Below are positions 1-11,596 of a stretch of DNA of 64,000 nt, piece by piece (position 1 is the first letter of the stretch; each line of letters begins with the position of its first letter). The notes under the pieces are model-generated. The model worked only from the letters and a program-made list of their open reading frames with translations. It was not told where the DNA came from and made no database searches. Source of the DNA: Puniceicoccaceae bacterium Marseille-Q1082 (GTDB taxonomy: Bacteria > Verrucomicrobiota > Verrucomicrobiia > Opitutales > Intestinicryptomonadaceae); NCBI GenBank assembly GCA_904424815.1, contig CAJGBI010000001.1, positions 1,016,508 through 1,080,507 of the forward strand, read 5' to 3'. Both the position numbers and the translations under genes were made by a program.

Positions 1-1107
1 GAACTTATCTCGCTTTCAGGCGCTATTAGAGAAAGAATCGGCGGATTAAAGGAAAAACTTCATCCGATTACGGCAAAAGCTGTCTCGGCAGTCGTCGCCG
101 ACATGAACAGCTACTATTCAAATTTAATCGAAGGACATCATACATACCCGAAAGACATAGAACGCGCCTTGCAAAACGATTTTTCCTCGAATCTGCAAGA
201 GCGGGACAAGCAACTTTTAGGTCTTGCCCATGTAAAGACCGAAAACGCCATATTAAGTTACGCAACGGAAGAAAATATATTTACTCCCGGAACATTGCTC
301 AAAATCCATGAGACTTTTTATGCAAATTTGCCGGAATCGATGCGACTCTCAAAATCGCAAAGCGGCAAAGAATATCAAATCATTCCCGGAAAATTCCGAA
401 ATTTTGAAGTTGCCGTGGGCGCTCATCAACCCCCAGCCTCAAAAAGTTTAGAGAAGTTCATCGCAAGGTTCTGCGAGGCTTATAAAAATATCCCAATAGG
501 CGAAATTCTGATTGCCGCCGCGGCATCTCATCACAGGTTGGCGTGGATTCATCCTTTTGGAGACGGTAACGGTAGGGTTGTGCGCATATTTACAAGCTCT
601 CTACTCAAGGCATACGGACTAAACGGAGGCGGAATATGGTCTATTTCCCGCGGGCTTGCAAGAAACCGCAGTCAGTATTACGCAAAGCTTGCAATCGCCG
701 ATCAGGATAGACAAGGCGATCTTGACGGACGAGGCACTCTTAGCGAGCGAAGCCTGATTAAATTTTGCGAATTTTTCCTTTCCACAATGCTTGATCAAAT
801 GGACTTCATGCTTGGCGTCCTGAAATTGGATTCCGTAATAAGCCGATATGCCCGCTTAATGCATGAGGTATTCCCAAAGAAATCGGAACTTTGCCTTCGC
901 ATTATAAAAGAGCTTTGGACTTTTGGAGAAACGCCCCGCGGGAAGATATGCGAAATAACTGGTATGTCCGAAAGGGCTTCGCGCGCAATTTTATCCGAAC
1001 TTGAATCCAAGGGTTTTGTAAAAAGCGATTCTCTTAAAACGCCCGTTCATATAAATATTTCCGCTGATATATCCGAACAAATCTTCCCCAATCTTTTCAT
1101 AGGTTAA
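1..1107 (+). CDS. Fic family protein (AMPylase-type), 5' end outside window
   Basis: The frame is open from base 1, so the true start lies outside the window; the first visible ATG is at 103 but coding similarity begins before it. The FIC core HPFGDGNGR, with the catalytic His, is at about residue 184 of the visible chain. A preceding helix carries SNLIEG, which fits the (S/T)xxxE(G/N) inhibitory motif, so the protein is a class II Fic that restrains itself through its N-terminal helix. The C-terminus has a winged-helix-like segment (ICEITGMSERASRAILSELESKG, in pieces) usual in Fic proteins of this type. Fic proteins normally transfer AMP or another phosphate-linked group to a target protein; the target here is unknown. 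No antitoxin gene is visible in the window. It lies at the edge of the AT-rich island. Confidence 0.9.
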   Translation, partial: ELISLSGAIRERIGGLKEKLHPITAKAVSAVVADMNSYYSNLIEGHHTYPKDIERALQNDFSSNLQERDKQLLGLAHVKTENAILSYATEENIFTPGTLLKIHETFYANLPESMRLSKSQSGKEYQIIPGKFRNFEVAVGAHQPPASKSLEKFIARFCEAYKNIPIGEILIAAAASHHRLAWIHPFGDGNGRVVRIFTSSLLKAYGLNGGGIWSISRGLARNRSQYYAKLAIADQDRQGDLDGRGTLSERSLIKFCEFFLSTMLDQMDFMLGVLKLDSVISRYARLMHEVFPKKSELCLRIIKELWTFGETPRGKICEITGMSERASRAILSELESKGFVKSDSLKTPVHINISADISEQIFPNLFIG

Positions 1108-1530: not shown

Positions 1531-2675
1531 TTATTTAACGTATCTTTCTTTAATAGATTCGGGAATTATATATTCAAATATTTTCCAGTCAGCAGGTGAA
1601 AATTCATCATAAATAGTATCTGGACAATTATTCACAAACTGCGGTTGTCTTCTTATGAGCGGCTCCCAGTTCAAAACATCAAATTCCTCCCACTTATCGA
1701 ACTTGTCTGCAAATTGTGGTTGTTCACTTAGGAGGCGGCTCCAATCCCAAGTATCAAATTTTTCCCACTTATCACACTTGTCCGCAAATTGTGGCTGTTT
1801 ACTTAAGAGCCAGCTCCAATTCTCAGTATTAAATTCTTCCCACTTGTCGCATTCTGATGCAAGCCCTAGATTCTTCTTCAATAGAGCAAGCCAGCCTGCT
1901 GCATACTCCTTTGATTTTTCTAGAAACTGCGGTTGTTGTACTATGAGCCGTCGCCAGTCTATATCGTCAAATTTCTCCCATTTGTCACACTTATCTGCAA
2001 ATTGTGGTTGTTCACTTAGGAGACAGCTCCAATCCCAAGTATCAAATTTTTCCCACTTATCACACTTGTCCGCAAATTGTGGTTGTTTACTTAGGAGACA
2101 GCTCCAACCCGAAGTATAAAATTCTTTCCACTTGCCACATTCAGATGCAAGCTCTGGATTCTTCATCAATAGAGCTACCCAACCTGCCGCATACTCTTTT
2201 GCTTTTTCTAGAAACTGCGGTTGTTGTTCTATGAGCGATTCCCAGTCCGAAACGAGAAATTCATCCCACTTGTCACACTTATCCGCAAATTGTGGTTGTT
2301 CAATTAAGAGAGGACTCCAACTCCAAACCCCAATATAAAATTTCTCCCACTTGTCGCACTTGTCCGCAAATTGTGGTTGTTTACTTAGGAGACAGCTCCA
2401 ATCCCAGGTATAAAATTCCTCCCACTTGTCGCATTCTGGTGCAAGCTCTGGATTCTTCATCAATAGAGCTACCCAACCTGCCGCATACTCTTTTGCTTTT
2501 TCTAGAAACTGCGGTTGTTGTACTATGAGCCGTCGCCAGTCTATATCGTCAAATTTCTCCCATTTGTCACACTTGTCTGCAAATTGTGGTTGTTCACTTA
2601 AAAGACGGCTCCAATCCACAGTATTAAATTCTTCCCACTTGTCGCATTTAGAAGCAAGCTCTGGCTTTTCTATCA
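1531..2675 (-). repeat. higher-order tandem repeats inside the repeat-protein gene
   Basis: Units of roughly 290 bp, each one long QPQFLEKAKEY unit plus short QPQFADK units, recur about three times. Blocks near 1918-2012 and 2504-2599 are almost base-identical over about 95 bp. Identity at DNA level points to recent expansion or gene conversion. Confidence 0.8.
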
Positions 2676-2708
2676 ATAGAGCAAGCCATCCGTTTTTATA
2701 TTCTTTTG

Positions 2709-3011: not shown

Positions 3012-4397
3012 TTAGGCGCTTAATAATGCGACTCTCAATTTTGCAATTTCAAAGGCGATTTTTGCGCAGCCTAAGGCGTGAGATTTGCTAAAGGCCGTAG
3101 TTATAGATTTCTCCAAATATTTTAGGATTTCTTCGGCCGCTTCTCTTTCTAATCGCAAATTATCAATTATTGCGCCTAAAATTTCTTCATTAAGAGCCGA
3201 ATCGCATTCTTTCTTTTTCAAAGCGTTTCGCCACTTGCCTAAGGTTAAACAATCGCAAGCAGTTAATTTGTGTGCCGCTCCAATCCATTGTTCTTGGAAA
3301 ACAAGAACGCCGTATGTTTCCTTTGTAATCTCGCTAATGATGGGGTGTATTTTCCTTACGCCATCTGGATTTATTTTATTTGCAATAAGTTCATCGAGCA
3401 AATCGCAACACCCCGGCCGATTGTAAGCAATTATAGCGGCCAGTTCTAACAACGAATTTGGCTTTAATTTTTTGGCATATTCTTTAGCCGACTTATATTG
3501 AAAATATGGTATTCCAAAGAAGTTTTTATCGGGATTTTCAAAAAATTTGAATACATCAGAATCGCTTGGATCCTTAGTAGCATCTATCATTTCTGATAAC
3601 TCGCGCGCGATATCCTCAAACTCGTTGGCTGACGCTCCAATAATCATTGCGCCACTTTCCTCGGCCTGAGTCCTAAAGTCTTTTGCTTGAAAATCAGGAA
3701 GCGGATAATTCCCGATAGCTATTATTCCTCCGCCATTGTGGAAGACATTGGGGTATTTTTTATATAAGTAATCCTCAACAAGATAAGGCTCTTCAGATAT
3801 ATGAAAAGTTGGAATATTTAAATTTTGCGCTGCCGAAAACTTATCGAAAACTAATCCGTATTTTATTGGATCAAACTCAGTAATTCCCAAAATGTATGCG
3901 ATGATACTACCGCTGGCACTCCCTCTAAAGCAACGCGCGGATAGCCCGTCTTTGCGCATGGTTTCAAGCAAATCCCAAACAATTAAAAATATATTATCAA
4001 AGCCTGTCTTAGATAAAAAATCTATTTCATCATTGATGCGCTCTGAAATTTCCGCTTCAGTATTTGGGTAAAATTTCTGCAGATTTCGTTGTACAGAATC
4101 TATTAGAAAATCTTTATTTGAGTTATAACCTCTTGGGAGTTTAAATTGCGGATAGTTTCGGGTGTGAGCCAAAAATGCTTCATCGACGTCAAATAATGAA
4201 GCGTCTACCTCGCATTTTGTTTCCGCTATGCGAATGAATCCACGCCTTTCCAAATCATTCATTATTGAACAAGCTTCACCAAACCCAATCTTTATGTTTC
4301 GTTGAAGAAAACTTGTCGAAACTTTCCTCTTAAGCTTTATCAGCTTAATAGCCTTAATATAGTTATTGTATCGCGATGATTTTTGTATTTCTCTCAT
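3012..4397 (-). CDS. DnaE-like protein without polymerase catalytic residues, with N-terminal FtsK-gamma-like winged helix
   Basis: 461 residues, far shorter than replicative DnaE (about 1150). Residues 10-57 (STSFLQRNIKIGFGEACSIM within) look like the DNA-binding gamma domain of FtsK. Residues 80-460 follow the palm and finger regions of the DNA polymerase III alpha subunit: RGSASGS (158-164), ILGITEFDPIKYGL (169-182), AYNRPG (324-329), TYGVLVFQEQ (361-370) and FSKSHA (436-441). Where active enzymes have PDFDIDF, with two metal-binding Asp, this protein has PTFHISE (196-202). The KFDFLGL segment with the third Asp is also missing, as are the PHP domain, tau-binding and OB parts. It cannot be a normal polymerase; a DNA-binding or regulatory role is inference. 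It starts inside the last codons of the preceding gene (ATGA overlap at 4394-4397), so the two are made together. Confidence 0.8.
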   Translation of the reverse strand: MREIQKSSRYNNYIKAIKLIKLKRKVSTSFLQRNIKIGFGEACSIMNDLERRGFIRIAETKCEVDASLFDVDEAFLAHTRNYPQFKLPRGYNSNKDFLIDSVQRNLQKFYPNTEAEISERINDEIDFLSKTGFDNIFLIVWDLLETMRKDGLSARCFRGSASGSIIAYILGITEFDPIKYGLVFDKFSAAQNLNIPTFHISEEPYLVEDYLYKKYPNVFHNGGGIIAIGNYPLPDFQAKDFRTQAEESGAMIIGASANEFEDIARELSEMIDATKDPSDSDVFKFFENPDKNFFGIPYFQYKSAKEYAKKLKPNSLLELAAIIAYNRPGCCDLLDELIANKINPDGVRKIHPIISEITKETYGVLVFQEQWIGAAHKLTACDCLTLGKWRNALKKKECDSALNEEILGAIIDNLRLEREAAEEILKYLEKSITTAFSKSHALGCAKIAFEIAKLRVALLSA

Positions 4398-5176
4398 TCC
4401 ATTACCTCCAATATACCTAAGTTTAAAGGTTCTTCCTTAAAGTAGCACCACGCCAAAAAAATCTCTCCTTGAGTTGTCTTTATGCGGATTGGATAGCGGC
4501 GGAAAAATTTTCTATTTGCAAAAATTCCGTCAAAGAAATCCAATTGCCTCATATTATTCAACTTGTATATGAAGCCTCTCCCGTGGGTTAGTTCGCATGG
4601 GACGTTTTTTAGAATGGCTTTCCCATCGCTTTTTTCGATGTTGTACTTTTCGCAAGTTTGGCATTTGCCAATTTCTTTTATCTTCAATTTTTTGGTGATG
4701 TAATCGTTCTCGTATCCCATTAGAAGTTTAGAGTAGATAAAAACATATTTGGCATAGAAGCGCTGCGTAAATTCCAAATAGAATTCCGGCAAATCGAAGT
4801 CCAGTGCTCCGTAAAATAAGTTCTGCAAACTTGCGTCTTTGCATATCCCAAAGCTAGAAGATTTGTTAATGCATGTAAAAATTTCCGCATCTTTCGGGCT
4901 TCCCTCACCGCAAAAAGATTTTTCGATTTTTACGTTAGTTTGTAAAAGGCCTAAACTGTACGGAGATTCCAAGTTGTTGAAACCAGAATCTGATATTCTC
5001 CAAATTCCGCCATACACATGTTCGTTTACAGATTTCTTTATGTTTGGCTTGCCAGATTCATCGACAAAAAATTCATAATCATCGAGTCTTGCCGATGCAA
5101 TTTTTTCGGGACTCGGACATATCTTCTCGAATTCCTCGCTATTTAAATCCGCGCCGTATGCAAAATAATATTTCAT
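4394..5176 (-). CDS. gamma-glutamylcyclotransferase-like (AIG2/GGCT fold) protein
   Basis: The start MKYYFAYGADLNSEEF matches the FAYGSNL loop that binds substrate in gamma-glutamylcyclotransferases; YGGIWRISDSGFNNLE also fits the fold. A second stretch near the C-terminus (GFIYKLNNMRQLDFFDG...RRYPIRIKT) looks like the distal half of the same fold, so the protein may hold one extended or two partial copies. Family enzymes release 5-oxoproline from gamma-glutamyl compounds; I cannot confirm the catalytic Glu. A cluster CQTCEKYNIEKSDGK..C lies between the parts. It is translationally coupled to the DnaE-like gene by a 4-bp overlap and starts from the divergent promoter region at 5177-5287. Confidence 0.65.
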   Translation of the reverse strand: MKYYFAYGADLNSEEFEKICPSPEKIASARLDDYEFFVDESGKPNIKKSVNEHVYGGIWRISDSGFNNLESPYSLGLLQTNVKIEKSFCGEGSPKDAEIFTCINKSSSFGICKDASLQNLFYGALDFDLPEFYLEFTQRFYAKYVFIYSKLLMGYENDYITKKLKIKEIGKCQTCEKYNIEKSDGKAILKNVPCELTHGRGFIYKLNNMRQLDFFDGIFANRKFFRRYPIRIKTTQGEIFLAWCYFKEEPLNLGILEVME

Positions 5177-5227
5177 AAAATTTTTATTTTTTGCATAATA
5201 CCACGTACTTTGCTTTTTATAATGGCG

Positions 5228-5245
5228 AGAATTGGGGACAATTCT
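5228..5245 (+). promoter_or_regulatory. candidate operator, dyad AGAATTG-GGGA-CAATTCT
   Basis: Perfect 7-bp inverted arms around GGGA, in the 111-bp gap between the divergent cyclotransferase-like and MBL genes. The core TTGGGGACAATTC (5232-5244) occurs again at 8567-8579, ahead of the second MBL gene. The distances to the start codons are 43 and 42 bases. A TATAAT at 5274-5279 lies only 8 bases before the MBL start codon, which would give a very short or no leader. Confidence 0.55.
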
Positions 5246-5287
5246 TGCACTTTAAAATATTTTATTCTCCGCATATAATATGGGCTT

Positions 5288-6562
5288 ATGAAATTGATTA
5301 TACACAGGGGAGATAAAGAAATTGGCGGCAGTTGCATTGAGATTAGAAGCAATTCGGGCGCGAGTATATTTATAGACGCCGGACTCGAGCTTTATGGCGA
5401 GAAGGCAAAGTTGCCCAAGGAGATTGAAAATACCGATGCCATATTCCTATCGCATGCACATCCGGATCACTTCGGCTTGCTTGGCAGAGTTTCCCAAAAT
5501 ATTCCAATGTATTGCGGCGAAATTACGGAAAGTATTTTGCAAATAATGATAGCCTTTAATGGAGACAAATTTGATAAAATCGATCGCAAATTTCTGCATT
5601 TTAAAAGCGGCGAAGAAGTAAAAATTAAAGACATTTCAATAACGCCGTTTTTGACCGACCACAGCGTGCCGGATTCCTATGCATTTCTTGTAAAAACGGA
5701 CGGGAAGGCGGTTTTATATTCTGGCGATTTTCGCACAGGCGGACGCAAGCATAATTGCATTACGCGCATATTAAATGCAGTGAAAAAGCCAAATATTTTA
5801 ATTGCCGATTGTACTTGCATAGAGCCTCGGGAAGGCAGCATAAAAACCGAAGAAGAGCTTGCAGAAAAGATCACTGAAACAATTTCAGCAAATTCAAATC
5901 TACCCGTTTTTGCAATATGCTCCGCTATAAATGTCGATAGAATTGTCACCATATACAAAGCGACAAGGCGCAACAAGAGAATTTTTGTCTGCGATATTTA
6001 CACAGCTTTAATACTTTGGGCTATGGGCAAATCCGGAGTAAAAGTTCCGCAAATAACTTGGGAATACGTAAAGGTCTTATCGCGAGATGATATTGCCAAA
6101 AGCCAAAGAGTTTTACTTGAACTTTCTTTTAAGAAACTTGGATTTAAGGATTTCAGGGATATTATTTACCGCAAAAACACTTCTATAACTGCCGAAGAAA
6201 TCTCAAAAAATCCTCATAAATATCTTCTAAAACTAAATCGCGTTCGGGATATTCAAAAGGCATGCGGAATTGGAAAATTCGTTCTCATATACTCCATGTG
6301 GAGCGGGTATCTAACTCCCGAATTCGACAAGCGTGGACAGTATAGAGATTTAATGGGCGATACTAATATAATCTTTGAAAATCTCCATACAGGGGGGCAC
6401 TCCGCTAGTGAAGATTTAAAAAGATTCATAAGCGGCTTAGATCCCGAATCCCTATTGCCATTCCATACAAATTCACAAGAATATATCTCTCAAAACCCAG
6501 ACACATTCGGAAATATTAACATACTTAACTTATCTGAATGTAATCAAGAGCTAGAAGTTTGA
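5288..6562 (+). CDS. MBL-fold, beta-CASP ribonuclease J-like hydrolase
   Basis: 424 residues. The metal-binding HAHPDH is at residues 56-61, followed by a His in TDHSVPDSYAFLV and an Asp in LYSGDFRTGG. A beta-CASP-like insertion follows (FAICSAINVDRIVTIYKATRR), then HTGGHSASEDLKRFI and PFHT, where RNase J-type enzymes place their last motifs. All expected ligands seem present, so a metal-dependent RNase or DNase is likely. It lacks the long C-terminal domain of RNase J. It is a stand-alone plus-strand gene diverging from the cyclotransferase/DnaE-like pair, and the shared upstream box suggests joint control with the second MBL gene. Confidence 0.85.
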   Translation: MKLIIHRGDKEIGGSCIEIRSNSGASIFIDAGLELYGEKAKLPKEIENTDAIFLSHAHPDHFGLLGRVSQNIPMYCGEITESILQIMIAFNGDKFDKIDRKFLHFKSGEEVKIKDISITPFLTDHSVPDSYAFLVKTDGKAVLYSGDFRTGGRKHNCITRILNAVKKPNILIADCTCIEPREGSIKTEEELAEKITETISANSNLPVFAICSAINVDRIVTIYKATRRNKRIFVCDIYTALILWAMGKSGVKVPQITWEYVKVLSRDDIAKSQRVLLELSFKKLGFKDFRDIIYRKNTSITAEEISKNPHKYLLKLNRVRDIQKACGIGKFVLIYSMWSGYLTPEFDKRGQYRDLMGDTNIIFENLHTGGHSASEDLKRFISGLDPESLLPFHTNSQEYISQNPDTFGNINILNLSECNQELEV

Positions 6563-6565
6563 GAT

Positions 6566-6601
6566 AAAAAAAGCTTCTTTGAAAAATACTCAAAGGAGCT
6601 T
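6566..6601 (-). terminator. terminator between convergent genes
   Basis: Arms AAGCTTCTTTG (6571-6581) and CAAAGGAGCTT (6591-6601), pairing throughout with one G-U. On the minus strand it is followed by seven T (6572-6566), so it mainly ends the gene at 6615-7460. It may also slow transcription from the MBL gene. Confidence 0.75.
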
Positions 6602-6614
6602 AAATATACATCAC

Positions 6615-7460
6615 TTAAGAATTATGTTTTCTATAACAAACTAATTTAAGATTTTTGTAACTGTTTTCGTAATCCTTCGGGGTTTCGGGTGTTTCATAAA
6701 TATATAAGTCAATTTCAAGATCATCAAATATCTTTGCAAGATATTCAAATTTCGAAGAATCCTTATCATCACAGAATTCAGCTGCGACTTTATATAGATC
6801 ATTTGCTTCATTTGAAATTTCACATGTATTATTAAATAATACAACAGCTTTTTTCACATTTTCTCGCTTTATTTGGATTTTTTTACATAATTTTATAGTT
6901 AAGAACTTATTAAAAAATTCTTCAGAAAATTGTTGATAATATGTCTGAATTTCAAATGCTGCTCTTAAAAGTCCTTCTGTGCTATTAGGAGCTTTTAATT
7001 CTACTATTGTTATAGTATCAGTATCTTTATTGTATGTTAAGAAATCAATTTTACCAACACCACGGTCTGATCTTTTAGCATTTAATGGTATCTCAAACTC
7101 AATGTTATCACCTAGATCATTAAGCTCTATACATTCTGCAATATCTCTTTCTGAAATTTTAAATTTACCTATTCTCGTTTTTTCCCCTTTTTTTCTTTTG
7201 GGGAATCCATTTTTTCTATCAATAAAAGGAATCTTTTTTAACATATCAACAACTTTCGGATATATCTTTTCTGATATAATATTAATATAATATTTTGATG
7301 AATCGTCCTTTGTAACTCCATTCCAATTTAATATATTAGAATGTTTAACACGTTTAGAATCTGCTTTATACAATTTATTAATATTGTCTTGATTTAATTC
7401 TTTTAGCAGTCCATCTGCATATTTTTCAGTTTCCTCTATTGTGTATATTCTTTTAGCCAT
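6615..7460 (-). CDS. PD-(D/E)XK nuclease-like protein
   Basis: 281 residues. The segment GVGKIDFLTYNKDTDTITIV followed by ELKAP has the Asp ... Glu-x-Lys layout of the PD-(D/E)XK nuclease fold; the helix after it (LLRAAFEIQTYYQQF) carries Q and Y as common in the family. I do not recognise the exact family. The gene is much more AT-rich and lysine/isoleucine/asparagine-rich than its neighbours, which suggests a separate origin. It starts 4 bases after the stop of the 350-residue gene, so the two form an operon. It could be a restriction-like or defence nuclease; that is inference. Confidence 0.6.
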   Translation of the reverse strand: MAKRIYTIEETEKYADGLLKELNQDNINKLYKADSKRVKHSNILNWNGVTKDDSSKYYINIISEKIYPKVVDMLKKIPFIDRKNGFPKRKKGEKTRIGKFKISERDIAECIELNDLGDNIEFEIPLNAKRSDRGVGKIDFLTYNKDTDTITIVELKAPNSTEGLLRAAFEIQTYYQQFSEEFFNKFLTIKLCKKIQIKRENVKKAVVLFNNTCEISNEANDLYKVAAEFCDDKDSSKFEYLAKIFDDLEIDLYIYETPETPKDYENSYKNLKLVCYRKHNS

Positions 7461-7464
7461 TTTT

Positions 7465-8517
7465 CTATCTTTCTATTAGTTTTCTAATTGATCGGAAATC
7501 CATGTTGGGACGGCCGATGGCGCGGGCGATAAAGTCTAATAGTTTGTCGCCTTTAAGTTTATTTTTTCTTCCTTCGGATTCGGCTTCGAGCGCAAGTTTT
7601 TTTAATGCGGCAAGGCGCGTGCGGCTCTCTGTAAATGCCAATCCCTGCTTTTGTACGCCCTTTGCTTTGTGCAGGCGCGAAATTTTACCGTGGTTAAAGT
7701 CTCGTTTGGCATCGTATGAAATATATCCTGGTATAAAGATCTGCGTGCCAAGCGGAGTAATATTTACTGAAGGTTTCATTATGTAGGGTTTATCGCCATC
7801 CATTGCCCACAGGTAATATTTCCAACAAAAGAGTTCAAATATCGCTTCAAATTCGGATTGCTGTGTCTTGAAAGAAACTCCGCCATCAAGCGTCCACGCA
7901 CGTTCGTTTAATAGACGCCGACGCAATTTGCCTTCGACGCATGTTTCTTTTGGATAGAGCGATTTTATCAAACTCCAGTCGCGCTTAAATTCTTCTGACG
8001 ATAGAATCTTCTTTTCAAATTCATCATATTTTGCGCGACCGACGACGCTTAGAAAATCTTCGTATCTTCCCTTGTAAACTATTTCTTGTGCCTCTTTTAC
8101 AGCCGCCAAATTTTTAAATTCAAAGCTATTAAATCCACAAGCCCCGCCCAGAGATGTATCTGCGGTTAGTTCCACAATAGCCCGTATTTTAGAAGAAAAT
8201 ATATCGGATTTACTTTCCAACGCCTCTTTTAAAATTTCTGCATAGGTTTCGGGGAAAGGAACAAAAGCCACTCGCGCTTGCCAAAAATTCAGACAAAAAT
8301 AGGCGTACGCATTTGCCAAATTCCAAACATACTCATTTCTACGTTCGTCTAATATTTGCGGTAGTTCGGAAAACAAAAATTTAATGAGCGGAAAATCTCT
8401 TTCATCAGAAAACGGCAAAGAGTTCAGTTCATTTAACGCTCTTTCTTCATCAAAAGCAGGCAGATGAAAAATCTTTAGCCATTTAGTCTTGAAAACATCT
8501 GAACGTTTATGCGCCAT
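7465..8517 (-). CDS. hypothetical protein of 350 residues
   Basis: I do not recognise this protein. It has no signal peptide and no membrane segment. The C-terminal 100 residues are basic (DFNHGKISRLHKAKGVQKQGLAF and RKNKLKGDKLLDFIARAIG, in pieces), which could suit nucleic-acid binding. It is the first gene of a two-gene unit with the PD-(D/E)XK-like protein. It is transcribed away from the second MBL gene across a 104-bp gap that holds the shared 13-bp box. Base composition is higher in GC than that of its operon partner. Confidence 0.6.
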   Translation of the reverse strand: MAHKRSDVFKTKWLKIFHLPAFDEERALNELNSLPFSDERDFPLIKFLFSELPQILDERRNEYVWNLANAYAYFCLNFWQARVAFVPFPETYAEILKEALESKSDIFSSKIRAIVELTADTSLGGACGFNSFEFKNLAAVKEAQEIVYKGRYEDFLSVVGRAKYDEFEKKILSSEEFKRDWSLIKSLYPKETCVEGKLRRRLLNERAWTLDGGVSFKTQQSEFEAIFELFCWKYYLWAMDGDKPYIMKPSVNITPLGTQIFIPGYISYDAKRDFNHGKISRLHKAKGVQKQGLAFTESRTRLAALKKLALEAESEGRKNKLKGDKLLDFIARAIGRPNMDFRSIRKLIER

Positions 8518-8562
8518 AATACAAAATAAATATAAAGATATTTACATTTAAAATAAAGGCTT

Positions 8563-8580
8563 AAATTTGGGGACAATTCG
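8563..8580 (+). promoter_or_regulatory. second copy of the TTGGGGACAATTC box
   Basis: The 13 bases at 8567-8579 equal those at 5232-5244. The surrounding dyad is weaker than at the first site (AAATTTG-GGGA-CAATTCG). It lies in the divergent gap between the 350-residue gene and the second MBL gene, 42 bases before the ATG. A TATTAT is at 8605-8610. Confidence 0.5.
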
Positions 8581-8621
8581 CAACATTAACTTTACGCGAA
8601 TATCTATTATTATCGCTGTTT

Positions 8622-9563
8622 ATGGAAAAACTTAGCGAAAGACAATTAGAGCGTTTAAGATTTGCGGAAATAGAAGTTATCAAGAAGGCGATTCAGCGCA
8701 TGGAGCAGTCCAGCCTCGATGCCGGCAAAATAAAATTAAGGCGCGATAGAATGGAAGATATATATGCCCATATCTGTGCTGATACAGTAAAAGGAATCTT
8801 AGAATTTGCACCGTCTCTGCAAAAAGTCAACCGAGTCTATCTTGAGAAAAACATAAAAAATAGGTTAAAATCTTTTGATTATAGACTGGGAACGCGATTT
8901 CTTGATTATTCAAAAAGCTCAATATTTAAAGCGGTAGCGCCAATTAGATTTATTGAGAATACCAAGCACGCGATATGTGCCCAGATATTGACTCGCTCTT
9001 TAAACTGCCTATTTGATATAGGGTTAACGAAAGAAAGTATAGGGTACATAGATTGCTGCGATATTGATTGTGTTTTCATAACACATGATCACTTAGACCA
9101 TTGCTCGGGATTGGAGTTTTTCCCGCAAGACACGAAAACGATATTTGTTGCAAACAAACCTACTCGAGACGCTATATTCAAACAAATTCCTGTTGCAAAA
9201 AAATTAAAGTGGCAAACATTTAAAACAGGGGAAGACTTTAAAATTCAAGATATGGCGGTATTAACTATACCTCTGAAACACGACTGCATAGAAAACGTTG
9301 CCTACAAACTAAATGACGAGATGTTACAATCTGTCTATATGGTGGATTTTGGAGAATGGTCGGAAAGTGAAATCGAATTTTGCAACGAAGCCGATAGAAT
9401 TATAATAGAGGCATACTACGATGAGACCAAACCTATTAAAAAATCTCCATTGGAATTGCGGAGAAGAAGCTTCCACGGACATCTTTCCATTCAGGCTGCA
9501 AATGAGTTTATCAAAAAGTTAACTCCTAAAACGGACCGGGAAATTTATTTCTGCCATTGTTAA
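8622..9563 (+). CDS. MBL-fold hydrolase with N-terminal extension
   Basis: 313 residues. HDHLDH at residues 155-160 is the metal site; further ligands are likely His in PLKHDC and Asp in YMVDFGEW, and the chain ends at CHC where a final His is expected. About 110 charged helical residues precede the MBL fold and match nothing I know. The protein may have lost a little of its C-terminus, since the family usually runs past this His. It could be an RNase Z-like nuclease. The PHP-type relic begins 20 bases downstream, so the two were probably co-transcribed. Confidence 0.8.
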   Translation: MEKLSERQLERLRFAEIEVIKKAIQRMEQSSLDAGKIKLRRDRMEDIYAHICADTVKGILEFAPSLQKVNRVYLEKNIKNRLKSFDYRLGTRFLDYSKSSIFKAVAPIRFIENTKHAICAQILTRSLNCLFDIGLTKESIGYIDCCDIDCVFITHDHLDHCSGLEFFPQDTKTIFVANKPTRDAIFKQIPVAKKLKWQTFKTGEDFKIQDMAVLTIPLKHDCIENVAYKLNDEMLQSVYMVDFGEWSESEIEFCNEADRIIIEAYYDETKPIKKSPLELRRRSFHGHLSIQAANEFIKKLTPKTDREIYFCHC

Positions 9564-9583
9564 ATCCAAATTTAGATATAAAA

Positions 9584-9800
9584 ATGAAAAATTCTGTACA
9601 TCTTCATGTTCATACGGATCATAGCTTCTTGGAGAACTGTATAAAAATTTCCAACATAATAACGCGCTAAAAAGCTTGAAATGCCAGCTGTAGCAATGAC
9701 AGACCACGGCAATCTTTGCGGGCTATGAAATTTTACAATGAGTCAAAGAGAAATGATCTTTTAAAATTTACGCACATAAAAATAATAGATGCTCCATATT
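9584..9800 (+). pseudogene. relic of a DnaE-type PHP domain
   Basis: An ATG at 9584 opens MKNSVHLHVHTDHSFLENC, the hallmark start of the polymerase III alpha PHP domain (HLHVHS.YSLLDG). It meets a stop after 28 codons. In another frame AKKLEMPAVAMTDHGNLCG (about 9666-9725) continues the domain, and after another shift AMKFYNESKRNDLLKFTHIKII follows up to a stop near 9800. The order and spacing fit one ancestral protein broken by several frameshifts. Past about 9800 I cannot follow the homology. It lies next to an MBL gene, about 5 kb from the intact DnaE-like gene that lacks exactly this domain. Confidence 0.75.
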
Positions 9801-10276: not shown

Positions 10277-11555
10277 CAAAGGTTGTGGAATAGGTTGATT
10301 TTTTAGATTTGCCTTTCATAGATTCACCCCGCATTCCACGAGGACTCTCAGTCTGTAATTTTCAAAGTTTCTGTATCCATAGGCTCTGCGTTGTATCAAC
10401 TTCATCTTGCGGTGGAAGCCTTCCGTAATTCCGTTATTTTTTGTAAATCTCCACATTCTTATTATCGGCGCAAACCATTCGCTTATCGTTTCCGCAAGCT
10501 TCCCAAACTCTGTCGGCGCTTCGTATTTCATTATCTTCATCATTTCCTTTAACTTTCTTATGTTATCCCTGCATTGCTTTGCCGTCTGACTCTTTTTATT
10601 CAATAGCCCGCATAATCGCTCCTTAAATTCGTACGCAAGCTCTATTGCCGGATTTCCCCTAAAAAAGCTTTTAAGCCGCTCCATCTCTTGCGCTTTTAGC
10701 CTCTCTCTCCTTTTCCGCAAAGGATAAGTAATCTTTCTCTTCCACTTTACTTCTTCTTGCGCACTCTTGCAAAATTCCATAAAGTGGTGGAGCACTAATC
10801 GTATCACATGAAACCTATCCGCTACTATCTTCGCCCTCGGAAAACATCTCCTTACGATACTTCGATATCCGCTCGATAAATCCATGCACACTACCTTCAC
10901 ATTTTCCCTGCCTTTGTACGACATTAGCGCGCCTGCTATATCGATATGTCTCTTCCCTTTAATAACATCGTATACCCTGTGGTGCGATAAGTCGGCTATC
11001 GTAGTCGCAAACTTGTAACCCTTGTGGATTGTGTGCTCGTCTATTCCTATAATTTCAGGACAAGGATAGTTGATTTGCTCTTTGAGCTTTTGCTCGTACC
11101 TACTGTGGATTGCCCGCTCAACCGTGCTTGCAGATATGCGGTAAATCCGAGCAATAGCCTTATTGCAAACGTTCCGAGCGTATTCACTTACGAGCCTGTT
11201 TTTGAACCTCTCCGAGTGACGAGCGTAAGGCCTTACTCCCTCAAGCCTTTCGCGAAAGACCCTTCCGCAATCGAGACACTTGTAACGCTTGCATTTTACC
11301 TTGAGATGATAAATAGCTCCGTTTTCAGAGACGTGCTTAATATAACGCCGGTAGGAATCGTAATGTATCAAACGATGCGACCCGCATAAGCAGTCGGGTA
11401 TACCCGACTGCTTATGCTCAACTTCCGCAAGCGAAAAGTCTTGACCAACTCTTACTGTCCTGAGTATCTTGTAACCCTTGATTAACACATTGGGCATTGT
11501 AGAACATTTTTTATTCTCTTTGCCCTCTTTTTTTTCTCCCATTCCACAATCTTTG
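10277..11555 (-). mobile_element. ISL3-family insertion sequence
   Basis: One transposase gene flanked by imperfect inverted ends: CAAAGGTTGTGGAATAGG at 10277-10294, and the complement of 11538-11555, CAAAGATTGTGGAATGGG. They match at 16 of 18 positions. I saw no clear target duplication outside them, so the exact outer borders are uncertain by a few bases. Confidence 0.75.
10316..11542 (-). CDS. ISL3 family transposase
   Basis: About 408 residues, full length for the family. The N-terminal zinc-finger region has CLCGSHRLIHYDSYRRYIKH and CKRYKCLDCGRVFRE; a helix-turn-helix follows (ARIYRISASTVERAI). The DDE catalytic residues are visible in IGIDEHTI, VVCMDLSSGYRS and GITEGFHRKMK. The ATG at 11542 is preferred over an upstream TTG at 11584, because the latter lies outside the inverted end of the element. 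A further ATG (MPNVLIKG) at 11497 is possible. The gene seems intact, so the element may be active. Confidence 0.9.
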   Translation of the reverse strand: MGEKKEGKENKKCSTMPNVLIKGYKILRTVRVGQDFSLAEVEHKQSGIPDCLCGSHRLIHYDSYRRYIKHVSENGAIYHLKVKCKRYKCLDCGRVFRERLEGVRPYARHSERFKNRLVSEYARNVCNKAIARIYRISASTVERAIHSRYEQKLKEQINYPCPEIIGIDEHTIHKGYKFATTIADLSHHRVYDVIKGKRHIDIAGALMSYKGRENVKVVCMDLSSGYRSIVRRCFPRAKIVADRFHVIRLVLHHFMEFCKSAQEEVKWKRKITYPLRKRRERLKAQEMERLKSFFRGNPAIELAYEFKERLCGLLNKKSQTAKQCRDNIRKLKEMMKIMKYEAPTEFGKLAETISEWFAPIIRMWRFTKNNGITEGFHRKMKLIQRRAYGYRNFENYRLRVLVECGVNL

Positions 11556-11596
11556 ACGTAGAGCGTCAAAATTCCGGTTCGCAAGCCCGCCTTTTG

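Follow-up and report, generated by a model that had tools for sequence, protein, structure and literature searches.

A conserved pair of predicted nuclease genes, accompanied at some loci by truncated DnaE-like proteins: a candidate bacterial defence system

Introduction

Several described systems contain parts comparable to those reported here. The RNase J family (TIGR00649) and EF2904 (PDB 2az4) are beta-CASP metallo-beta-lactamase (MBL) proteins with an HxHxDH motif and later histidine motifs. Type VII CRISPR Cas14 (NF045584) is likewise a beta-CASP nuclease, in that case a defence effector. In Hachiman (HamAB) a nuclease effector is reported to be held by a DNA-sensing partner, and PMC12926913 presents ImuB as an inactive polymerase kept as a protein-contact part. 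We describe here a six-gene cluster, genes A to F, in a 64,000-nucleotide stretch (the window) of Puniceicoccaceae bacterium Marseille-Q1082, whose assembled genome measures 2.7 Mb. Gene C encodes a beta-CASP MBL protein and gene D a predicted PD-(D/E)XK nuclease, and these two genes form a conserved pair across distant hosts. Gene A encodes a truncated DnaE with altered catalytic residues. The features of the cluster are the following (aa, amino acids).

3012–4397, minus strand: gene A, 461 aa; FtsK_gamma winged helix (aa 13–56) fused to a truncated DnaE palm/fingers
4394–5176, minus strand: gene B, 260 aa; gamma-glutamylcyclotransferase (GGCT)/AIG2-like (Pfam GGACT 2.9e-7; PHROG gamma-glutamyl cyclotransferase 3.1e-12)
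5232–5244, plus strand: box copy 1, TTGGGGACAATTC, 43 bp upstream of the C start codon
5288–6562, plus strand: gene C, 424 aa; RNase J-like beta-CASP MBL; conserved core
6615–7460, minus strand: gene D, 281 aa; PD-(D/E)XK nuclease by signature; tail to tail with C
7465–8517, minus strand: gene E, 350 aa; no family assignment
8567–8579, plus strand: box copy 2, TTGGGGACAATTC, 42 bp upstream of the F start codon
8622–9563, plus strand: gene F, 313 aa; MBL protein (Pfam Lactamase_B_2 4.2e-16)
9584–9752, plus strand: relic of a dnaE 5' end (PHP start), frameshifted; tblastn 1.6e-13; 20 bp past F

The open reading frames (ORFs) of B and A overlap by 4 bp and those of E and D lie 4 bp apart, so that the minus-strand genes form two pairs, and each pair diverges from an MBL gene on the plus strand. 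This layout had been proposed in an earlier sequence-only reading and its six ORFs were confirmed, together with the divergent gaps of similar size (111 bp for B/C and 104 bp for E/F) that share the 13-bp box. That reading had also listed a PHP relic with the second MBL gene; the relic proved to be separate from F, a decayed dnaE start in two frames. The two mirror-like blocks were rejected as functional units: the conserved partners, C and D, sit in opposite blocks.

A conserved pair of predicted nucleases

Gene C matched Pfam at the superfamily level only (Lactamase_B_2, 8.2e-16). The HxHxDH motif was present in all 77 C-family ORFs examined and HxxGH in 75 of them; with HxHxDH and the downstream histidine motifs, C belongs to the beta-CASP MBL superfamily. 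Its nearest PDB sequences were EF2904 (profile match 9.6e-39) and RNase J1 (approximately 1e-27), and the nearest NCBIfam family was RNase J. Against the RNase J cut-off of 400 bits, C scored 85.9 bits and four homologues 55–76 bits, which places them outside that family, and with the Cas14 model C reached 39.7 of the 800 bits needed.

Gene D carries the signature of the PD-(D/E)XK superfamily (E...D...ExK...Y) at residues E104, D139, E154, K156 and Y174. The E, D, E-L-K and Y positions were all kept in 11 of 11 alignment rows of its family, in agreement with its earlier description as PD-(D/E)XK-like. In a larger family of partner nucleases (a cluster of sequences over 250 aa, 36 of 39 aligned), the E, D, E and K residues were kept in 36/36 and the tyrosine in 92%. 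The two families align on the same catalytic residues (hhalign E 7e-5, probability 63%). A PDB sequence search with D returned a single match, weak and unrelated (0.025). By its signature D is probably a PD-(D/E)XK nuclease, and the catalytic signatures of both C and D look intact.

Homologues of C were collected at 88 loci: 72 from a scan of genome contigs with a profile built on the alignment of plasmid homologues of C (that of plasmid pCY186 being 28% identical over 417 aa), seven from plasmids and nine from genomes of the phylum. A distant locus in an ABC-transporter context (L067) was excluded. A D-type nuclease was located within 1.2 kb of the C homologue at 55 of the 88 loci, in many phyla; 38 of these loci belonged to a neighbour cluster, four were added by the profile of this cluster and 13 held members of D's own family. 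In the neighbour clustering, 38 of the first 79 loci had a member of one and the same family next to C, in most cases as the immediately abutting gene. All 43 matches to the larger nuclease profile lay within 1 kb of a C homologue and 18 of the 19 matches to the smaller, D-family profile within 1.2 kb, both profiles being seeded from these same loci, which extend up to 9 kb on each side. The C homologues occurred in Pseudomonadota, Bacillota, Acidobacteria, Verrucomicrobiota, Lentisphaerae, Spirochaetes and others, and a nuclease partner was detectable for most of them. The family was patchy, with at least 11 of 387 genomes of the phylum positive at E 1e-30, few candidates being scored per genome. 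Three Hyphomicrobiales loci (L061, L087 and L089) showed a longer conserved run, c18-c19-c20-c4-MBL-c21-nuclease, followed in L061 by a PD-(D/E)XK gene and UvrD.

The sequence-only reading had named an absence of linkage beyond close relatives as the result that would refute it. Linkage across distant hosts was found for C and D but not for B, E and F: gene B had no match at any of the 88 loci, E matched only at the locus of a congener, and F had a full-length match only there.

The nearness of C to EF2904 and RNase J would also suit a toxin-antitoxin or RNA-decay module, in which one nuclease is toxic and the other gene restrains it or mends the damage; two abutting genes, as seen at many of the loci, are usual in such modules. 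However, both partners carry complete nuclease signatures and the gene order varies between loci (nuclease before C, after C or, as in the window, convergent with it). We consider this explanation quite improbable.

The related cluster of a congener

The order C-D-E-F was kept in the congener genome (G003), with identities of 68, 34 (over 134 aa), 77 and 55%, respectively, D diverging fastest. Gene E was present in two of the 387 genomes of the phylum, both of the same genus. It had no match in Pfam, PADLOC, NCBIfam, PHROGs or PDB at the limits used, and was rejected as a known fold for want of a PDB sequence match. The match of F at the congener locus (L068) was full-length. A chromosomal MBL matched in 78 of 88 genomes of the order is related to F, which carries about 100 additional residues at its N-terminus.

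The congener has a second dnaE start, oriented divergently from C. It is 97.6% identical over 370 nt to the other dnaE of the genome, the likeness stops at the start codon, and the contig ends 369 nt into the gene. Its interpretation as simply the housekeeping gene was rejected, another dnaE start being present on contig C4, so that there are two. The piece could be a captured copy, an insertion junction or a strain variant binned together with the genome. Taken with the decayed dnaE start after F, it fits either a recruitment of host DnaE or a habit of insertion near dnaE.

A shared box upstream of the MBL genes

The first 12 bases of the box, TTGGGGACAATT, had exactly two sites in the assembled genome, both in the divergent gaps of the cluster. 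Three exact sites were found in the congener, two in the divergent gaps before C and F and the third within a coding region. In both genomes the gap boxes precede the C and F start codons by 41–44 bp. The two copies in the window compare with a chance mean of 0.01, and none of 100 shuffles contained two. When one mismatch was allowed in the 13-mer, two further sites appeared elsewhere in the genome, the reversed control giving 0. A TATAAT lies at 5274–5279, between the C-side box and C. With exact copies only ahead of C and F in this genome, and with copies ahead of the same two genes in the congener, the cluster looks co-regulated, and the box is the best evidence, at the sequence level, that both blocks form one regulon. 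In this sense the earlier claim that the parts belong together was supported.

The box before C reads as a palindrome (GAATTG-N4-CAATTC), a property expected of an SOS box. This feature would suit a repair or mutagenesis complex in which the dead DnaE is a scaffold, like the inactive ImuB in ImuA-ImuB-DnaE2, and in which C and D process DNA ends under the control of DNA damage; inactive polymerases are known parts of such complexes, as PMC12926913 states for ImuB. In the source genome the exact sites are confined to the cluster, and the box was rejected as a general SOS/LexA operator, which argues against such a complex. So does the architecture of the short DnaE proteins described below, which lack the region past the fingers, where DnaE binds the clamp and tau. 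We judge this explanation very unlikely.

Short DnaE proteins with lost catalytic residues

Gene A matched FtsK_gamma (7.5e-11), the DnaE palm (2.4e-22) and the DnaE fingers (2e-18) in Pfam. Over 43 aa, its FtsK gamma domain shares 44% identity with that of the host FtsK. The protein has neither a PHP domain nor any of the DnaE sequence past the fingers. The three catalytic aspartates of C-family polymerases, D401, D403 and D555, are replaced by H, S and E, the last being followed by a deletion, and the earlier description of A as a dead DnaE-like gene therefore holds. A survey of C-family polymerases (PMC3919608) gives these aspartates as absolutely conserved and removed the sequences without an intact active site. 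Apart from A, no open frame shorter than 700 aa appeared among the DnaE matches listed for the order.

The sequence-only reading had also suggested checking whether DnaE-like and MBL genes co-occur in distant hosts. The outcome was intermediate: dead DnaE parts were found at four further loci in three phyla. At the three catalytic positions, the short DnaE of the Butyrivibrio plasmid pCY186 (L036) has R, D and a gap, that of a spirochaete (L106) D, D and N, and those of two Lentisphaerae loci (L113 and L118) F, T and an intact third aspartate. Each of the five proteins is thus without at least one of the aspartates. All five stop matching the host DnaE at 898–908 of the host ORF, after the fingers, and this end of the match falls 5–22 aa before their own termini; on the polc model of 1022 positions, the L113 and L106 proteins extend to 769 and 771. 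Searches of plasmids and phages with DnaE-like queries gave 1028–1974 records each, the matches listed being mostly annotated DnaE or unannotated, and pCY186 was their only useful gain.

The hypothesis of a single clade for the five short DnaEs was rejected (approximately unbiased test, AU, p=0.003). The Butyrivibrio protein nested within Clostridia (100/100 for the four-row clade). The grouping of A with housekeeping DnaEs of the Planctomycetes–Verrucomicrobia–Chlamydiae (PVC) group was not rejected (p=0.31), and the grouping of L106 with its own host's DnaE was weakly rejected (p=0.039); the tree had 28 rows and long branches, and these single placements are unsure. Since the five are not one clade, short inactive DnaEs were probably recruited at least twice.

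All five dead-DnaE loci carry a second replication or FtsK-derived part: the FtsK gamma domain in A, two FtsK motors in L113, DnaB_C and Bac_DnaA in L118, DnaB_C and a WYL protein in L106, and DnaX, DnaA and PolC in L036. The FtsK, DnaB and DnaA queries had no match in the remaining C loci. The Walker A lysine was lost in the L106 DnaB_C (..GEGRFS) and the L118 DnaA (..GLGVTH), and Walker A was intact in the L113 FtsKs and the L118 DnaB_C. L113 and L118 are paralogous loci of one Lentisphaerae genome (G450). They have the short DnaE, the MBL and two small genes in common but differ in the ExK-motif genes beside the MBL and in the ATPases. A C-terminal tail is shared by the L113 FtsK and the L118 DnaB_C (phmmer 1e-13), as though one replication domain had replaced another on a constant stem. 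At L118 a D-family gene lies 858 bp from the C homologue. A small domain, c4, is fused to a DnaA-type ATPase in pCY186 (E 1.1e-6) and was found near C in nine other loci.

Two other genes were noticed at these loci. On pCY186 an FtsH-like AAA and M41 peptidase protein of only 420 aa (L184:26799–28061), another cut-down host machine, adjoins the dead DnaE. A reverse transcriptase at L118:9666–10334, cut by the contig end, is in our own reading a candidate retron-like element.

The main rival explanation concerns these DnaE pieces, which may be passengers: C and D would be a mobile nuclease module, and the pieces debris of insertion beside dnaE, of plasmid replication genes or of gene decay. The dnaE piece of the congener, with its high identity and a likeness ending at the start codon, fits insertion, recent capture or a strain variant; the dnaE start that follows F has decayed to a pseudogene; the PolC of pCY186 looks intact; and 82 of the 88 C loci have no DnaE-like ORF (a lone PHP protein at L159 was rejected as a DnaE neighbour and not counted). 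On the other hand, the 461-aa ORF of A is intact, overlaps B and lies close to the shared box, the short DnaEs, though separate in origin, share their stop point and have each lost catalytic aspartate, and the c4–DnaA fusion links a replication ATPase to the module. DnaE-like neighbours were present at six loci in five genomes with approximately 0.46 expected (P approximately 1e-4 for five), in a rough Poisson estimate that assumes 1.3 DnaE per 3.5 Mb and counts the host-like piece at L068 and the DnaE2 of L139, whose motifs look intact and which was rejected as a dead-DnaE case. Passenger status is possible and, in our opinion, somewhat unlikely. If the DnaE link is incidental, what is new would reduce to a nuclease module of the type met in defence islands.

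Defence context and genomic setting

In PADLOC-DB 2.0.0, C had no match and D a weak one only (PDC-M45C, 0.0012), and neither could be assigned to a known system. The C and D homologues of L036, L061 and L063 and the C homologue of L065 had no match in this library; the D of the congener weakly matched PDC-S11 (1.2e-4). The NCBIfam cut-offs were reached by neither C nor D. The sequence-only reading had not recognised the combination, and the libraries searched indeed hold no name for the cluster.

WYL proteins were present in 11 of the 88 C loci, and Pfam WYL matched five of 143 nearest neighbours of C homologues (143 of 155 covered). A PADLOC scan of these 143 neighbours gave, among its matches, two to Cas3c and one to Cas1_IIIb models, a tally made without a control set. 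CRISPR-type genes may occur near some C loci; arrays were not searched for. McrBC lies near the replication-gene set of pCY186. In the source genome, type I restriction genes are located just upstream of the cluster (HsdM 1.1e-251, HsdS 3.1e-97 and HsdR 1.5e-38 in a family search), and a Fic-domain gene (103–1107, plus strand, frame open from -80; SoFic model of PADLOC, 9.4e-29) stands just before it. The defence setting is suggested by this context, namely the type I restriction-modification genes, WYL proteins, McrBC and PADLOC neighbour matches; protection itself is a prediction. A phage origin of the pair was rejected, since neither the C alignment nor E nor the L113 DnaE had a confirmed relative in IMG/VR. 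Gene A had only a 100% copy in IMG/VR, taken as the same genome.

The G+C content is 34–42% in the first 12 kb of the window and 51–62% in its remainder; upstream of the window it is still 34–49% over approximately 60 kb. The Fic gene is 62% identical to a Fic gene that adjoins F in the congener, on the opposite side of the cluster. Between the Fic gene and A, positions 1531–2676 (minus strand) encode a 381-aa protein of approximately 40-aa repeats (..WDWSxLLSxQPQFADKCDKWE..) with no family match above cut-off, and an 89-aa ORF of similar make-up, as judged by eye, is located directly before C in the congener (L037:401–670). An ISL3 transposase (Pfam 1.7e-57) occupies 10316–11584 (minus strand), and the first 70 residues shown of an ORF approximately 20–21 kb upstream of the window are identical within it. 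A candidate prophage, read from ORFs and gene order, extends from approximately -59.6 kb to -21 kb upstream, with an integrase near -59.6 kb and a terminase near -40 kb. The IMG/VR contig UViG_2914150438_000002 (75 kb) terminates at the start codon of gene A.

Proposed model

We propose that the cluster is a nuclease system that has spread horizontally and most probably acts against phages or plasmids, an explanation to which we give an even chance. In this genus the C–D pair is embedded in two divergent sets (B-A / C and E-D / F) with one operator-like box in common. C and D would be the effectors, cutting nucleic acid that belongs to the invader or to the infected cell. With less certainty, the dead truncated DnaE, FtsK, DnaB and DnaA parts may be the bait or sensor in a subtype to which this locus belongs. 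They would bind attackers or users of the host replisome, such as phage takeover proteins and foreign forks, without DNA synthesis, and contact with the bait would release the C and D nucleases. The lost catalysis, the lost post-finger region, the repeated origin and the swapping fit a decoy valued for its surface, a reading that we hold to be rather unlikely and of which passenger status is the main rival. In its fullest form the model is one of replisome-decoy immunity, in which dead, shortened DnaE, FtsK, DnaB and DnaA, recruited repeatedly in several lineages, would bait phage proteins that attack host replication and capture would license the beta-CASP and PD-(D/E)XK nucleases. This form is equally tentative and we hold it to be unlikely.

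Several observations weigh against the proposal. Gene D has no Pfam match above cut-off. At 33 of the 88 loci, some on cut contigs, no D-type nuclease was found by cluster or profile; many of these loci have a neighbour with a bare ExK motif, which was not counted as a partner. The ExK ORFs abutting C in L113 and L118 match neither nuclease profile (best E 3.1), so that the C–D pair is not proven at these two loci. Short DnaEs with a lost catalytic aspartate were seen in only five of 89 loci (the 88 and the window), in four lineages, and the one of L106 has lost D555 only. No orthologue of A was present among the matches listed for the 88 genomes of the order. The motifs of PolC, DnaX and DnaB look intact in pCY186, and its DnaE-like genes may therefore belong to the plasmid replisome. 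Finally, the PADLOC neighbour tally has no control comparison.

Comparison with known systems

In the libraries and literature searched, no known kind of system was found that combines this C–D pair with inactive replication proteins; the literature covered, with most subscription papers outside its scope, gave no description of the C–D pair, of dead DnaEs or of replisome decoys. Compared with the RNase J family, C is far below the cut-off, shorter, patchy and paired with a predicted PD-(D/E)XK nuclease. It is also far below the cut-off of Cas14. The palm and fingers of C-family DnaE are recognisable in A and in the short DnaEs of L036, L106, L113 and L118. In contrast to C-family DnaE, these proteins have lost one to three catalytic aspartates and have nothing past the fingers, and A is fused to FtsK gamma. 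ImuB differs from A in belonging to the Y family and not the C family, in being SOS-linked and in having no nuclease pair. Hachiman differs in its helicase sensor and has no MBL, and no homologous part of HamAB was identified in the cluster. The C–D pair is found in many phyla and yet has no curated name in the libraries searched. If the bait or sensor reading is true, the cluster would show how bacteria watch for a takeover of the replisome and would reveal a new use for inactivated C-family polymerases. Replisome decoys would then correspond, in bacteria, to the integrated decoys found in plant immune receptors.

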